Assembly: GCA_031285965.1 (NCBI GenBank)
Contig: JAITVD010000024.1
Location: 1-36,176 of the forward strand
From: Azoarcus sp.
GTDB lineage: Bacteria; Pseudomonadota; Gammaproteobacteria; Burkholderiales; Rhodocyclaceae
Direction of reading: 5' to 3'
DNA length: 36,176 nt
The position numbers and the translations under genes were made by a program. The stretch's first letter is position 1; every line of letters begins with the position of its first letter. The notes under the pieces are model-generated. The model was not told where the DNA came from and searched no databases. It worked only from the letters and a program-made list of their open reading frames with translations. Shown in pieces: positions 1 to 4,466 of this stretch.

Positions 1-1826
1 TAGACGAAACGCGTGCCTACGCGCAGGCGGTTGGAATCCGCGCTGTTGAAGCGCACCGGGTCGCCTGTGGAGAGAGTGACGGAATCGCCGTCCAGCCGCG
101 TCCAGAAGTATTTGCCGTAGAGGTCGAGGGATGCCTTTTCGCTGATGTTCCAGAGATACCCGGCTCCCAGGTGCAGGCCGTAGTAAGCCGTGGAGGAATC
201 GTACTCCGCGTCGCGGCCCAGATTGTCCCGCAAATCGGAACTGCCGTACTCGTTATGCACCTTGCCCGCGCGTCCTGACGCTTCCGCATAGAAACGCCCC
301 GGCCCGGTGTTGGCGAAATCCATACGGCCAAGGATGCCGCCGCCGAGATGGTACACGTCCCCGTCGCCGTTCACGGAAGCCGCATTACTGAAACTGTTGT
401 GCGTGTCGTAATTGCCGTGGCCGTACTCGAAGAACGCGCCGAGGGTCAGGCGGCCGGGGGTGGTATCCACGCCCCAGGCGAGGCCGGTCAGGAAGGTCAG
501 GCTGGACATATCCACATTTGAACCCGTGTCGTAACGTGACCAGCCGCCGGAAATCGCGGCGAACGTCCCGAAGCCGGAGCCGCCCGTCGCCTTTACGGCC
601 TGATGGATGCCCTGTCTGGCAACGAGGTCGCCGCCCTGATTGACGAGAATGAGATCCGCCAGAAAGCCTTCGGAAAGCGCCTTGGCCTGTTCATTGACAC
701 CGGCACTGGTCACGGTGGCGGTGAGCATATTGTTGGCGGCTGCTATATCGAACTCATATTTCAGGGTGACGCCCTGCATCCCCTGGCCGTTGGCCGTGGA
801 GTTCTCCGGCGTTCCGGTCAGCGTCCCCGCGCTCGCGTCAATGAGCGTGACTTGGTTGCCCACGGCAAGGGGGGATGATGCGCCGTCAATGCCCACGTTG
901 ACCGTGGAGGCGGTGATGTCCGCATCGCCGCCGCTGCCTATGGTGAGCATGGTGCCTCCCGCCGCCAGAGTGGTGGGCAGGTAGAAGTTCAGCGTCTGGA
1001 AGTTTTTCACGCCATATACGCTGATGGGAGAGTGCAGATTCAGGGTGTTGCCGGAGAAAGTGTCGCCTATGCCGTCAATGTCGCCCCCGTAGAGAATGGA
1101 GTTTGACGGGTCAAATGTCGGGCTGCCGCTGATGGTGACAGTGTTGTTTGTGGCCGTGACCGTGCCGCTGTTGTTAAGGGCAAACCCGCCGTAAACATTG
1201 CCGTTCACCGTGCCGCCGCTGATGGTGACAGTGTTGTTTGTGGCTGTGGCCGTGGCGCTGCCGTTGGTGCTTTCGGCACGCCCGCCGTAAACAGTGCCGC
1301 TCACCGTGCCGCTGTTGATGGTGACGCTGTTGCCGCTGGCTGTGCCCGTGGCCGAGGCGTTGCCCTGGCCATAGGCATGTCCGCCGTAAACATTGCTGCC
1401 CACCGTGCCGCCATTTATGGTTACGCGGTTGCCGCTGACCGTGACCGGAGCATCCTGCTCGGAGGCATATCCGCCCTTAACTTCCAAATCCACACTGCCG
1501 CCACTGTTGACGGTCACTGAGTTTTCCGTGGCCGAACCGCTGTCTAGGTCATTCCCGCCGGTAGCGTTATTCACCGTGCCGCCGCCGTCGATGATGAGCG
1601 TGTTGCCGTTCGCGTCCCGAAAATTGTCAGTGAAGTTGTTGGGGCCTTGGCCGTAGCTGGGGGAGTCGGGGTCGTCGTAGGGGCTGTTGCCGTGAACGCT
1701 CGCGCCCACATTTTTGTCGATGGTGATGGTTTGCCCGGCCAGCGCCGACTGCGGGAATAGGGCGGGCAGAGCCGCAAGGCCGAGGGCAAGGCTGAATACA
1801 GCGAAGCTGGACAGGGGCTTGTTCAT
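1..1826 (-). CDS. Autotransporter with repeat passenger and C-terminal beta-barrel (partial, runs off window)
   Basis: Reading from the ATG at 1826, the frame stays open for 608 codons to the window edge, so the C-terminus is missing. Residues 1-30 are a classical signal peptide (Lys-3, hydrophobic core, cut after ALA). Residues of about 110-240 are Gly/Thr/Asn-rich repeats with the motifs VYGG and NxVTI, as in beta-helical passengers. From about residue 415 the sequence becomes an alternating Tyr/Gly/aromatic pattern (GTFAAISGGWSRY, FFEYGHGNYD, YAEASGRAG, LGAGYLWNISEKASLDLYGK), typical of the autotransporter outer-membrane barrel. A strong ribosome site, AAAGGAGA, lies 5 nt before the ATG. 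The protein would be surface-displayed; its ligand is unknown. The frame is also open upstream, through a tetranucleotide repeat, to 2225 (see the leader ORF). The family call is firm and the specific function is unknown. Confidence 0.88.
   Translation of the reverse strand, partial: MNKPLSSFAVFSLALGLAALPALFPQSALAGQTITIDKNVGASVHGNSPYDDPDSPSYGQGPNNFTDNFRDANGNTLIIDGGGTVNNATGGNDLDSGSATENSVTVNSGGSVDLEVKGGYASEQDAPVTVSGNRVTINGGTVGSNVYGGHAYGQGNASATGTASGNSVTINSGTVSGTVYGGRAESTNGSATATATNNTVTISGGTVNGNVYGGFALNNSGTVTATNNTVTISGSPTFDPSNSILYGGDIDGIGDTFSGNTLNLHSPISVYGVKNFQTLNFYLPTTLAAGGTMLTIGSGGDADITASTVNVGIDGASSPLAVGNQVTLIDASAGTLTGTPENSTANGQGMQGVTLKYEFDIAAANNMLTATVTSAGVNEQAKALSEGFLADLILVNQGGDLVARQGIHQAVKATGGSGFGTFAAISGGWSRYDTGSNVDMSSLTFLTGLAWGVDTTPGRLTLGAFFEYGHGNYDTHNSFSNAASVNGDGDVYHLGGGILGRMDFANTGPGRFYAEASGRAGKVHNEYGSSDLRDNLGRDAEYDSSTAYYGLHLGAGYLWNISEKASLDLYGKYFWTRLDGDSVTLSTGDPVRFNSADSNRLRVGTRFV
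1131..1428 (-). repeat. Passenger-domain tandem repeats (30-33 aa units)
   Basis: The plus-strand motif gatggtgacagtgttg recurs at 1131 and 1221, with diverged forms near 1317 and 1416. The spacings are 90, 96 and 99 nt, all multiples of three. In protein terms each unit carries TVxGxVYGG, a variable Ala/Ser/Thr segment, then NxVTIxxG. The two copies at 1131 and 1221 are nearly identical at DNA level, so recombination between units could change passenger length without breaking the frame. Confidence 0.7.
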
Positions 1827-1883
1827 GATGTCTCCTTTATGAATGCCGTCAGGGGGATAGGGTTCAGCGTGACAATGTTCACG

Positions 1884-1920
1884 AAACAAAAAAGCCCCGT
1901 TCCATACAAGGAACGAGGCT
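1884..1920 (-). terminator. Intrinsic terminator / attenuator inside the autotransporter leader
   Basis: On the minus strand AGCCTCGTTCC and GGAACGGGGCT form an 11-bp stem (one G-U pair) around a 6-nt loop, followed at once by TTTTTGTTT. It points toward the autotransporter and ends only about 58 nt before its start codon. It therefore either ends an upstream transcript or works as an attenuator. No other minus-strand gene lies between it and the presumed promoter apart from the leader ORF. Confidence 0.75.
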
Positions 1921-2012
1921 GAAAATCCGGGCGGAAAGATGTTTTTGAAAGTGCGGGAAACGCGAAAAGCCGTGCGGGGCTTAGGCGCGGGCGCGGATGA
2001 GAGACGGTGTGT

Positions 2013-2060
2013 TAGGTAGGTAGGTAGGTAGGTAGGTAGGTAGGTAGGTAGGTAGGTAGG
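2013..2060. repeat. Tetranucleotide repeat (TAGG)12
   Basis: There are twelve perfect, uninterrupted TAGG units, 48 bp, reading CCTA on the minus strand. Perfect tetranucleotide tracts of this length are the hallmark of slipped-strand contingency loci in host-associated proteobacteria. This one lies in the presumed transcribed leader of a surface protein. Because 48 is a multiple of three, the leader ORF is presently in frame with the downstream gene. Confidence 0.93.
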
Positions 2061-2210
2061 CGCAAAAATCGGGCCGAAATTTTCAATTCCGGTCAGCGTT
2101 TTGTCGCCTGATACCCTATTGCCGTCCAAGATACCCATATCCTCTGCCAAACATGCTATACAGCGCGGCGGACACATAAGCGCCCTGCGCGGTTCACAAG
2201 AATCTTGGTT

Positions 2211-2241
2211 ATTATAGAGGATAAATTATGAAAAAGACCAA
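2211..2241 (-). promoter_or_regulatory. Candidate promoter of the autotransporter leader
   Basis: A perfect TATAAT lies at 2216-2211 on the minus strand, with TTGGTC at 2241-2236 as a weak -35 and a long 19-nt spacer. Transcription would start near 2204, upstream of both leader start codons and of the repeat, so repeat-number changes would act after initiation. The -10 match is strong; the -35 is doubtful. Confidence 0.45.
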
Positions 2242-2293
2242 GAGGAAGCTTGTAGACGCTTTTGTGGACGCATTGGATACTATGTTGAAATAA
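2228..2293 (+). CDS. Possible 21-residue basic amphipathic small protein
   Basis: ATG at 2228 to TAA at 2291-2293 encodes a 21-residue peptide. It starts MKKTKRKL and ends LDTMLK, with a Lys/Arg-rich head and hydrophobic residues spaced 3-4 apart, as in an amphipathic helix. GAGG lies about 8 nt upstream. It is divergent from the autotransporter leader and overlaps its candidate promoter region. I do not recognise it. An ORF this short can arise by chance; the ribosome site and composition are the only support. Confidence 0.3.
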   Translation: MKKTKRKLVDAFVDALDTMLK

Positions 2294-2670
2294 TTGCACA
2301 TAAGTTTTTCACGCTCTTTCCTGTCTGACTCGTCCCCTATCTATGCTGTTTGGACTGCCTTGGTAGTTGGGGAGCCTTTCAGCGTATGCCCCGGCATGAT
2401 TTTTTTGTCTATTTGACAAAATGTCGTACTGATAATTTTTTATTTGAAAAATAAATTTCAAAACAGTATAGGCAGTATTTCGATTAAAAACATGAAATCA
2501 ACAAAGGTTTTCAGTAATTGGCTGTAAACAGGTCCGCCAGGAAAAGTAAAACAGCCAAACAGTAAATCAGATTTATTTTATTATTTTAGTTGTTCATACA
2601 AATGTTTTTTATTGTGCGTCTGTGATTTGAGTGATTATTCATAATACTCAATAATTCGCGTAAGGTGTTT
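2294..2670. other. AT-rich intergenic stretch with an inverted repeat at 2627-2651
   Basis: No convincing gene is visible on either strand. TTGAGT (2627-2632) and ACTCAA (2646-2651) extend inward through ATTAT/ATAAT to an 11-bp stem with one bulged G. On the minus strand this sits just after the stop of the broken YD-repeat gene, where it could be a weak terminator, although it lacks a T run. GACAAAATGTC near 2416 is a further small inverted repeat. The base composition differs sharply from the GC-rich flanks. Confidence 0.45.
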
Positions 2671-3447
2671 TCAGAGAGTGCTGTATTTTGCCATTTGTGA
2701 GGGATCTGCCCGTTCTATCCAGTTGCCCCTGTCGTCATATTTGTAGGTGACAACGCCTGTTTCCGTAACCTCTCCTTCCTTATTTTTAATGGTGATGAGC
2801 GAAACGTCTCCCTGTTCATTGTATTCGTAAAACGTATGGTCTTTGCTCAAAGAGTTCAGATAAAATTTTATCGTCGCCTGCGGAGTGGTTTTCAATCCTG
2901 CCGCCTTCTGTGTACATAAATTTTTCCACAATTCGGTTGTCGGCGTTATAAACCATTCTTGTTACAATGTCGAAATCATCGGCATTGTTCCTTAAAGTCC
3001 TGCTTTCAACGCAATTCCCCTTTTCATCGTATTGATAGGTTGTACGGAATACAGGGGAGCGAGATATGCTGCCCGCTGTTATTTTTGCTGTTCCTTCTTT
3101 TTCCAGAAGTCCGTGATTGTTGTATTCGTAAACGAATTTTGTTATACCCATATCATCCTGCCTGCCGCTGCGATAACTGAGGTAGGATATTAAGCGAGCG
3201 TTGCTATCATATATATATAATTATCCTCTATAAACAGCGGATTTGAGAGGTATTTCATTTCTGCTCTCGTTCTTTTGCCCGTTTCATCAAACCACGTTTT
3301 GATATAATCGCTACCGTTAGTCATATACACAGATTTTACTTTTCCTTTGAGATTTTCTTTTTCGAGCATTGTTTGCGTTTTATTTTGTTGAGCCAAGCAG
3401 ACGGTTGTTGCCGCAAGGAGAGTTAATGTGAGGATTGCTGTTTTCAC
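2671..3447 (-). pseudogene. Secreted YD-repeat-like protein broken by two frameshifts
   Basis: Three consecutive minus-strand frames join into one protein of about 258 residues. The first part starts with GTG at 3447 and has a signal peptide ending CLAQ, then LKGKVKSVY and a FDETGKR motif. It stops at 3190 after a (TA) dinucleotide tract (3209-3219). Removing one TA restores NYIYDSNARLISYL and continues into the second frame (VYEYNNHG, YQYDEKGN, VYNADNR). A further single-base shift near 2889 leads to the third frame (YEYNEQGD, YKYDDRGNW), which ends at 2671. The YxYDxxGN motifs are those of YD/RHS-type repeat proteins, common in bacterial secreted or toxin-related proteins of uncertain role. 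AT-rich composition suggests transfer. Sequencing error is the alternative explanation. Confidence 0.65.
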
Positions 3448-3495
3448 TATTTAATTTCCCTGCCGAGATATTTCCATCATTGGCCGGAAACCGTC

Positions 3496-3714
3496 CTAAT
3501 CGGGAAAAAGCCCGTCTGGCGCTTCCGCTTCCCCATCTTGCGGCGAGCAAGGTATCCGGTACTCCCCGCTTGCCCACGCGCCGAGGTCAATCTGTTTGCA
3601 ACGCGCCGAGCAGAAGGGGCGGAAAGGGTTTTCTCCGCTCCATTCGGCTTGCTTGCCGCATCGGGGGCAGCGCACGAGGCGCTTTGGCGGCTCGTCCGCG
3701 CCAGAGGCGTTCAC
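3496..3714 (-). CDS. yacG: DNA gyrase inhibitor YacG (zinc-binding)
   Basis: A protein of about 72 residues with CPRCGK near the N-terminus and CSARCK about 20 residues later, the CxxC...CxxxC zinc site of Yac[21 protein letters not shown] and GEYRI are typical of the family, which binds the GyrB subunit and inhibits gyrase. The GTG at 3714 overlaps the zapD stop by 4 nt (GTGA), arguing for coupled translation. A TTG at 3723 is an alternative start adding three residues. Gene order zapD-yacG is common in beta- and gammaproteobacteria, usually next to coaE, as here. Confidence 0.9.
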
Positions 3715-4466
3715 AGGCCGCAAAACGTCAGTTCAAAGGGCAGGTCGCGTTCGAGCGGGCGGGGTCGAAGCTGTGTTTCGGGCAGCATGAAGCGGATGTT
3801 GAGCGCGTATTTGTTCGCGCTGATTTCGGGTACGGCGACTTCGCTGCGGGCGATGCGGATGCGGATCATGTGCGCTGCGCTGCCCGTCATGGGCATTTGG
3901 AACTGACCGCTTCGCGCCACTTGCGATTCCACCCGCCCGCTTGAGCGCAACAGCCGCAGCACGATGGCAAGCCCGTCTTCGATGGGCTTCATCGGCTTCG
4001 CCCAAGCGTCGAGGTCGCGGTGGCGGCTTTCGGCATCGCGGTTGAGCCAGTAGTGATAGGAAGGCAGGTCGAATTCGCAAGCGCCGCCCGGAATGGAAGC
4101 GCGGTTGCGGATGCTCGTCAGCCATTCGTTTTCGCGCAAATGCTGGCCGAAGCGGCCTGTCATGGCCAGCAACCCGGATGACGCCTGTTCGATTTCCTTC
4201 AGCGCGTCGCGGAGCGCCTCCTCGGAAATGTCGGGATTGTCGCGGAACGACAGCAATATCTGGCGCTGCCGTTCAAGCTCCTGGACGAGGTCAATCTTCA
4301 GGTCGGCGCGTCCGGCCACTTCGACAGTTTCAAACAGGGCGAGAATGGCAATGTGATGGTGCAGCGGCTCGTCGCTGCTGCGGAAATGGGCGCTTCTCTG
4401 GAGCAAATCCTCCAGACGCAACAAAGTGCGGATGCGCTCGCTGAAAGGGTATTCGTAGGTAATCAC
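3711..4466 (-). CDS. zapD: Cell division protein ZapD
   Basis: A 251-residue protein close to the usual ZapD length. It opens with [20 protein letters not shown], and [19 protein letters not shown] and [10 protein letters not shown] follow, all family hallmarks. ZapD crosslinks FtsZ filaments at the division ring in the cytoplasm. The start is GTG at 4466. It lies about 100 nt downstream of coaE and overlaps yacG at its end, so the three probably form one unit. No odd features were seen. Confidence 0.93.

Follow-up and report, generated by a model that had tools for sequence, protein, structure and literature searches.

Organization of the autotransporter leader

The window, i.e., the whole stretch of 36,176 nucleotides of Azoarcus sp. 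DNA that was analyzed, opens with an autotransporter gene on the minus strand that is truncated by the window edge. The gene is preceded by a reading frame containing an array of tetranucleotide repeats and, between array and gene, by a hairpin with an adjoining T run. Listed from the gene upstream, the features are:

3..1826, minus strand: autotransporter gene with a signal-peptide-like start, MNKPLSSFAVFSLALGLAALPALFPQSALA (recognized by eye); truncated by the window edge
1832..1838, minus strand: AAAGGAG, ribosome site of the autotransporter, read from the sequence
1888..1893, minus strand: six T, completing a presumed intrinsic terminator; the first T (1893) doubles as the final base of the stem
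1893..1920, minus strand: hairpin AGCCTCGTTCC-TTGTAT-GGAACGGGGCT with 11 pairs, a presumed attenuator; -20.4 kcal/mol, z -6.1 against shuffles
1981..1983, minus strand: TAA reached at unit numbers of 1 mod 3 (short-leader state)
2012..2014, minus strand: TAA at the repeat edge, formed at unit numbers of 2 mod 3 (short-leader state)
2013..2060, minus strand: (CCTA)12 on the coding strand, i.e., (TAGG)12 on the plus strand; presumed slippage switch
1827..2177, minus strand: leader reading frame from ATG 2177 (alternatively ATG 2138), putative translation MCPPRCIACLAEDMGILDGNRVSGDKTLTGIENFGPIFA(PTYL)4..., running into the autotransporter at 12 units
2211..2240, minus strand: candidate leader promoter, TGGTCT (2240-2235), 18-nt spacer, TATAAT (2216-2211); 9/12 consensus matches in a lenient scan

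The autotransporter carries a beta-domain (Pfam PF03797, E 2.8e-11), and its passenger region contains three imperfect tandem copies of 96 bases (1125-1412). On the minus strand, the leader frame opens past a TAA at 2228-2226, with ATG 2177 as its first and ATG 2138 as a further in-frame start; the ribosome site ahead of ATG 2177, GCAGGG, is modest. Despite this modest site, the window has a simple repeat within an upstream leader frame. The array itself contains TAG stops in all three plus-strand frames.

The original prediction had described twelve perfect TAGG units within an upstream reading frame in phase with the autotransporter. Twelve units were indeed counted at 2013-2060, a number known from one assembly, and at this number the frame of ATG 2177 is open into ATG 1826. 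Across 8-16 units only 9, 12 and 15 leave the frame open, as expected if multiples of three are needed. The stops foreseen for a gain or loss of one unit were also recovered: 10, 13 and 16 units give exactly the TAA at 1983-1981, and 8, 11 and 14 units end at the TAA at the repeat edge (2014-2012). The distance of 104-117 codons to the real start proved accurate, as ATG 2138 and ATG 2177 lie 104 and 117 codons from ATG 1826, respectively. Open and closed registers coexisted in 65-100% of leaders shuffled with the first base kept; the register pattern therefore carries no weight on its own, and we dropped the presence of both as evidence.

The terminator-like hairpin (1920-1893), which did not figure in the original prediction, sits within the leader frame between the repeat and the gene. 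The terminator ends ~60 nt ahead of the autotransporter ATG, which by prediction leaves some room for another promoter. A lenient scan of positions 1500-3600, a stretch picked after the fact, found three terminator-like sites where shuffling gives 2.6; as this count is near expectation, the hairpin is distinctive only in its stem length and energy. Across 21 genomes of the genus, its exact pattern turned up only twice, in the window and in the second copy described below, and on these grounds we rejected a common genomic terminator repeat as its identity.

That the TGGTCT/TATAAT site at 2211..2240 is the leader promoter we only infer: it is absent from the output of a stricter promoter scan, and the promoter-like sites around the repeat, four in number, are about as many as chance would give (3.0 expected). 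Rfam 15 yielded no matches (window 1-4000, E up to 1; six sources, gathering score), and a PDB search and a tRNA scan returned nothing relevant to the leader. Opposite the presumed promoter, an open reading frame of 21 codons with a good ribosome site, MKKTKRKLVDAFVDALDTMLK, lies on the plus strand (2228-2293). Further upstream on the minus strand (2671-3447), three overlapping or adjacent short open reading frames (2671-2931, 2816-3151 and 3190-3447) may be pieces of one broken gene.

A second copy in the same genome

A search for arrays by a five-unit pattern among 395 sampled genomes of the family found them in the window genome only, where there are two; their occurrence is more than chance. 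The leader has one relative in its own genome, at G000:C43:82790-82966 (hereafter C43), which is 76% identical and contains (CCTA)11. The C43 autotransporter is a paralog of that in the window (66% identical over the matched part), and the hairpin in front of it resembles that of the window (z -5.1, ~37 nt ahead of the ATG). With its 11 units the C43 leader stops at the repeat edge, and its ATG has no obvious ribosome site. A TAA in the frame of the gene lies three bases ahead of the autotransporter ATG, so that the leader cannot be fused to the protein, whatever the number of units.

Outside the own genome, no full-length match to the leader DNA was found among 199 genomes of the family; a 29-nt match in G085 to the stretch past the repeat was set aside. 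Several autotransporter relatives in the genus have other arrangements. In one, L078 (G209:C8), a looser form of the hairpin lies ~40 nt ahead of the ATG, and there is no array. AAGC arrays lie in or near the early codons of the relatives' own genes at L079 (G142:C216) and L084 (G206:C23), as does a C12 tract at L081 (G210:C89), and an AAGC array precedes the gene by a few hundred bases at L083 (G214:C33). In addition, a species of the window's genus carries (ATCC)27 within an acyltransferase-like open reading frame (L053 1501-1608, G206:C76; assigned by eye), which looks like a classical phase-variable gene with a coding repeat.

A Desulfovibrio locus with two unit numbers

Named genomes, from which the own genome was possibly left out, were scanned for arrays of at least seven CCTA units, giving 27 stretches. 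Two of them represent the same locus, in Desulfovibrio sp. An276 (L103, 10 units) and in an uncultured Desulfovibrio (L107, 11 units), with flanks identical at 397/399 and 1972/2000 positions. The unit number thus differs between the two genomes compared. Both have a strong ribosome site, GGGAGGAG, followed by an ATG and a leader frame MEEKAGKGTAGVGSGTCFSMILA(PTYL)n, with the array beyond the first 23 leader codons. The best promoter-like site starts 48 nt upstream of the leader start, as found by a scan on L103, to which L107 is identical in this upstream sequence. The predicted terminator (-28.4 kcal/mol, z -5.0) lies ~20 nt ahead of the gene ATG, too close to leave room for a promoter behind it, and the gene encodes an inverse autotransporter (IAT_beta, E 8.3e-63).

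With 10 units, the long leader crosses the terminator and ends at the gene start; with 11 units, the leader is short and stops at the repeat edge. Fusion of leader and gene would require the same register in which the leader ends at the repeat edge. Among 79 genomes of that genus, six matched the L103 leader. In three of the relatives (G469, G462 and G407), leader and terminator are kept and at most two CCTA units are left; their leaders end before the hairpin in G469 and G407 and beyond it in G462.

A family of leaders in one genome

One of the six genomes, G448, matched the L103 leader over the array and its left flank only, at five places, with arrays of 13, 11, 13, an interrupted 9, and 8 units. 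Four of these five CCTA loci have a leader with three hairpins in common, the last with a T-rich tail. In the four leaders, which were used to build a covariance model, 5 of the 15 pairs of the terminator helix show changes on both sides, and the whole three-hairpin structure contains six such pairs vs. none or one when slid; further pair types, a second measure of covariation, did not exceed shuffles (295/500). The model recovers the four leaders and an additional one, C52 (E 7.8e-7), in which (CT)17 replaces CCTA; there, one register reaches +135 and two stop by +17. By the RNA model, G448 therefore holds one family of five leaders, in addition to a sixth, looser CCTA array with similar flanks (C87). 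Under strict filters the model found no leaders beyond G448 among 79 genomes of its genus.

The long register ends within the last hairpin in three of the model leaders and runs further in the fourth; all five family leaders are presently in the short register. The stretch L144 folds at -23.9 kcal/mol. L103, L107 and four G448 leaders show a clear start codon and ribosome site for the leader frame, which are weak in C43. The leader codons show no third-position bias. The amino acids of the leader peptide are thus not under visible selection, and we rejected such selection as an explanation; the absent bias fits a leader whose translation rather than product matters and, equally, an untranslated leader.

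The genes behind these leaders are diverse. The cargo of C87 is a TpsA adhesin with its TpsB. C26a precedes part of an EcoRI-type adenine methylase (L140 214-735, PF13651, E 5e-41), perhaps a methylation gene subject to phase variation, and the cargo of C26b is a methyltransferase-like open reading frame below the Pfam cut-off. C3 and C52 precede two secreted-looking proteins without a Pfam match, and no clear gene lies close behind C56.

Recurrence of the layout and a shared motif

The flanks of the 27 named arrays, taken on both strands, served as controls (n = 54). A terminator within 200 nt occurs in four of them, and a terminator combined with a gene start in two, both belonging to L103/L107. 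The window, C43 and the G448 leaders C3 and C26a pass the same combined test. C26b and C56 have a terminator and fail only because no open reading frame of at least 100 aa starts within 100 nt of the hairpin. A terminator is predicted between repeat and gene in the window, C43 and L103, and none was detected by the terminator finder in C87 and C52.

Directly ahead of the array, the window, C43, L103/L107 and the five G448 CCTA leaders share the six bases YTTGCR, which were found in 1 of 25 other named arrays (L090). The YTTGCR motif is read in different frames in the window's copies and the Desulfovibrio copies, and the CT leader has neither CCTA nor TTGCR. The shared YTTGCR hints at common descent or at a function that is not understood. 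The exception L090 (6228-6283), from a Gammaproteobacteria MAG, has (CCTA)14 behind the same TTCTTGCA motif and a short open reading frame, with no terminator by the terminator finder. Other arrays are arranged differently: (CCTA)10 lies in the 5' region of a TolC-like outer-membrane gene (by eye) of an uncultured Mailhella, with no apparent hairpin (L104 7824-7863), and in two unrelated bacteria (CCTA)n lies directly ahead of stretches resembling signal peptides in open reading frames, an early-codon layout (L100 5668-5699, L105 6589-6640).

A putative phase-variable attenuator

The repeat and its registers, the hairpin with its T run, the copies with the same layout and the differing unit numbers of the Desulfovibrio locus are directly observed. 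They make it likely, in our judgment, that the autotransporter gene of the window is preceded by a 5' leader acting as a phase-variable transcription attenuator. According to this proposal, an upstream promoter would give rise to an mRNA that comprises the leader frame with the CCTA repeat, the intrinsic terminator and the autotransporter with its own ribosome site, and slippage would alter the number of CCTA units. In the ON state, the frame would take the ribosome into or through the hairpin, which would be blocked from forming, and RNA polymerase would continue into the gene; in the window this would be the state at 3n units, including the present 12. In the OFF state, the ribosome would leave at least 60 bases ahead of the hairpin, the terminator would form and most transcripts would end early. 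At the window locus, we infer transcription start, leader translation, termination, read-through and switching from these features. By this logic, the window (12 units) and L103 (10 units) would be ON, and C43 and L107 (11 units each) would be OFF. The unit number does set the leader end, either well before the hairpin or inside or beyond it, although chance alone often produces such registers. The agreement of the leader frame with that of the autotransporter is probably incidental, and what should matter is whether the ribosome reaches the hairpin.

The open frame of the window also allows for classical translational phase variation, in which the autotransporter would start at 2177 or 2138 and carry the repeat among its own first codons. 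Twelve units indeed connect ATG 2177 to the protein in an open frame, and relatives in the genus have repeats in or close to the first codons of the protein (AAGC at G142:C216 and G206:C23, C12 at G210:C89). The window alone is ambiguous in this respect, but the signal peptide and ribosome site at 1826 would then be preceded by an extension of 104-117 residues, the synthesis of which would need read-through of the strong hairpin. Moreover, the repeat does not lie between the gene's own start and its body in C43 or L103, and fusion is impossible in both, owing to the TAA before the ATG in C43 and to the repeat-edge stop of the fusing register in L103, which excludes leader-protein fusion as the point of the switch. 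We therefore regard an early-codon switch as unlikely, and the suggestion of the original prediction that the repeat acts on a leader and not on the protein itself is the best fit. Promoter-spacing repeats are well known in other bacteria, and the unit number could alter how regulators or RNA polymerase are spaced or bound, with the leader frame being incidental; the Mailhella array, in the 5' region of a gene with no apparent hairpin, would suit such an action on DNA. At L103/L107, however, the best promoter-like site lies upstream of the leader and the array lies beyond the first 23 codons, the (CT)17 leader has similar registers and not the repeat sequence, and the terminator that separates array and gene would have no explanation, all of which renders an effect on the promoter improbable.

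Repeats of variable length in leaders can also be targeted by small RNAs, e.g., at tlpB of H. pylori, and a CCUA tract that binds a small RNA or alters folding would make length rather than frame the determinant of expression. YTTGCR, common to the window's and the Desulfovibrio copies despite their different reading frames, would be in line with a role of the RNA itself, but the lack of an Rfam match and the (CT)17 copy without CCTA and TTGCR make this explanation very unlikely. Finally, the repeat could be mutable without regulatory consequence and have the hairpin as its neighbor by chance, given that the register logic is common in shuffles and the regional count of terminator-like sites is at chance level. 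Such a coincidence is very unlikely in view of the recurrence of the layout at the window, C43, L103/L107 and several G448 leaders, the compensatory changes that maintain the G448 terminator helix and the control flanks, 54 in number, among which only those of L103/L107 share the layout. The attenuator proposed above thus remains our preferred explanation.

Comparison with known switches

The proposed switch resembles the tetranucleotide phase variation of Haemophilus and Neisseria in unit slippage, in the 3n rule of the frame and in its association with surface proteins. In those genera the repeats typically lie within the protein's own open reading frame, whereas here the switch would reside in a separate leader that is followed by a terminator.

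A closer parallel is offered by the pil1 pilus locus of Streptococcus gallolyticus, with variants that extend to pil3. Danne et al. (2014; PMC3894217) showed that repeats in a leader frame set the access of ribosomes to a terminator hairpin, with support that includes mutants and transcripts; a second paper, PMC5891635, mentions the same repeats. The pil1/pil3 loci and the present ones share a short repeat in an upstream leader frame, a stem-loop terminator before the structural gene, and a leader that either stops well short of the hairpin (low) or extends to its vicinity, into it or past it (high). A surface adhesin as cargo is likewise common to both. Unit numbers differ among isolates of S. 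gallolyticus and, here, between two Desulfovibrio genomes, the window locus being known at one number. The predicted layout satisfies the sequence features of the S. gallolyticus mechanism. The pil1/pil3 repeat is a GCAGA pentanucleotide ahead of a pilus operon in a Gram-positive host; the repeat here is CCTA (once CT), the hosts are Gram-negative and the system is known from sequence alone. The cargo here differs from that described for pil1/pil3 and comprises autotransporters, an inverse autotransporter, a two-partner secretion adhesin and methyltransferase-like genes, and, again unlike the pil1/pil3 arrangement, the long leader of the window, C43 and L103 extends up to the gene start or overlaps it. 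As in E. coli trp-type attenuation, to which PMC3894217 also refers, translation of the leader would decide on terminator formation, but control here would lie in a mutable reading frame and not in stalling at amino-acid codons; an antiterminator pairing was not identified in the leaders studied here.

Among the matches listed, which cover titles and the beginnings of abstracts from part of the literature, PMC3894217 was the only one to describe the mechanism, and the matches searched for Desulfovibrio and Sutterella held no report of it. The mechanism itself is thus known from S. gallolyticus, and the repeat, the Gram-negative hosts and the cargo would be new.

Implications

A broader reading, which we advance tentatively, is that the mutable-repeat leader and its terminator form a reusable cassette ahead of unrelated surface and DNA-modification genes. 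It would occur several times in one genome and probably in two phyla, the latter if the window organism is a relative of the Burkholderiales. Such a relationship is probable: the CCA enzyme of the window is, among plasmid-collection records, most similar to that of Comamonas (61.7%), and its transketolase to gamma- and betaproteobacterial ones. The cassette may possibly have spread by horizontal transfer, as the shared YTTGCR could indicate, and its unit would be exchangeable (CCTA for CT) with the frame logic kept. The layout predicts ON and OFF states from sequence alone, and the pair of loci with 10 and 11 units and the exchange of CCTA for CT are available as natural comparisons. Surveys of phase-variable genes that consider protein open reading frames or promoters could miss such switches because the repeat sits in a short leader. 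If the proposal is true, the streptococcal pilus switch also works in Gram-negative gut bacteria, where it would control autotransporters and perhaps DNA methyltransferases.
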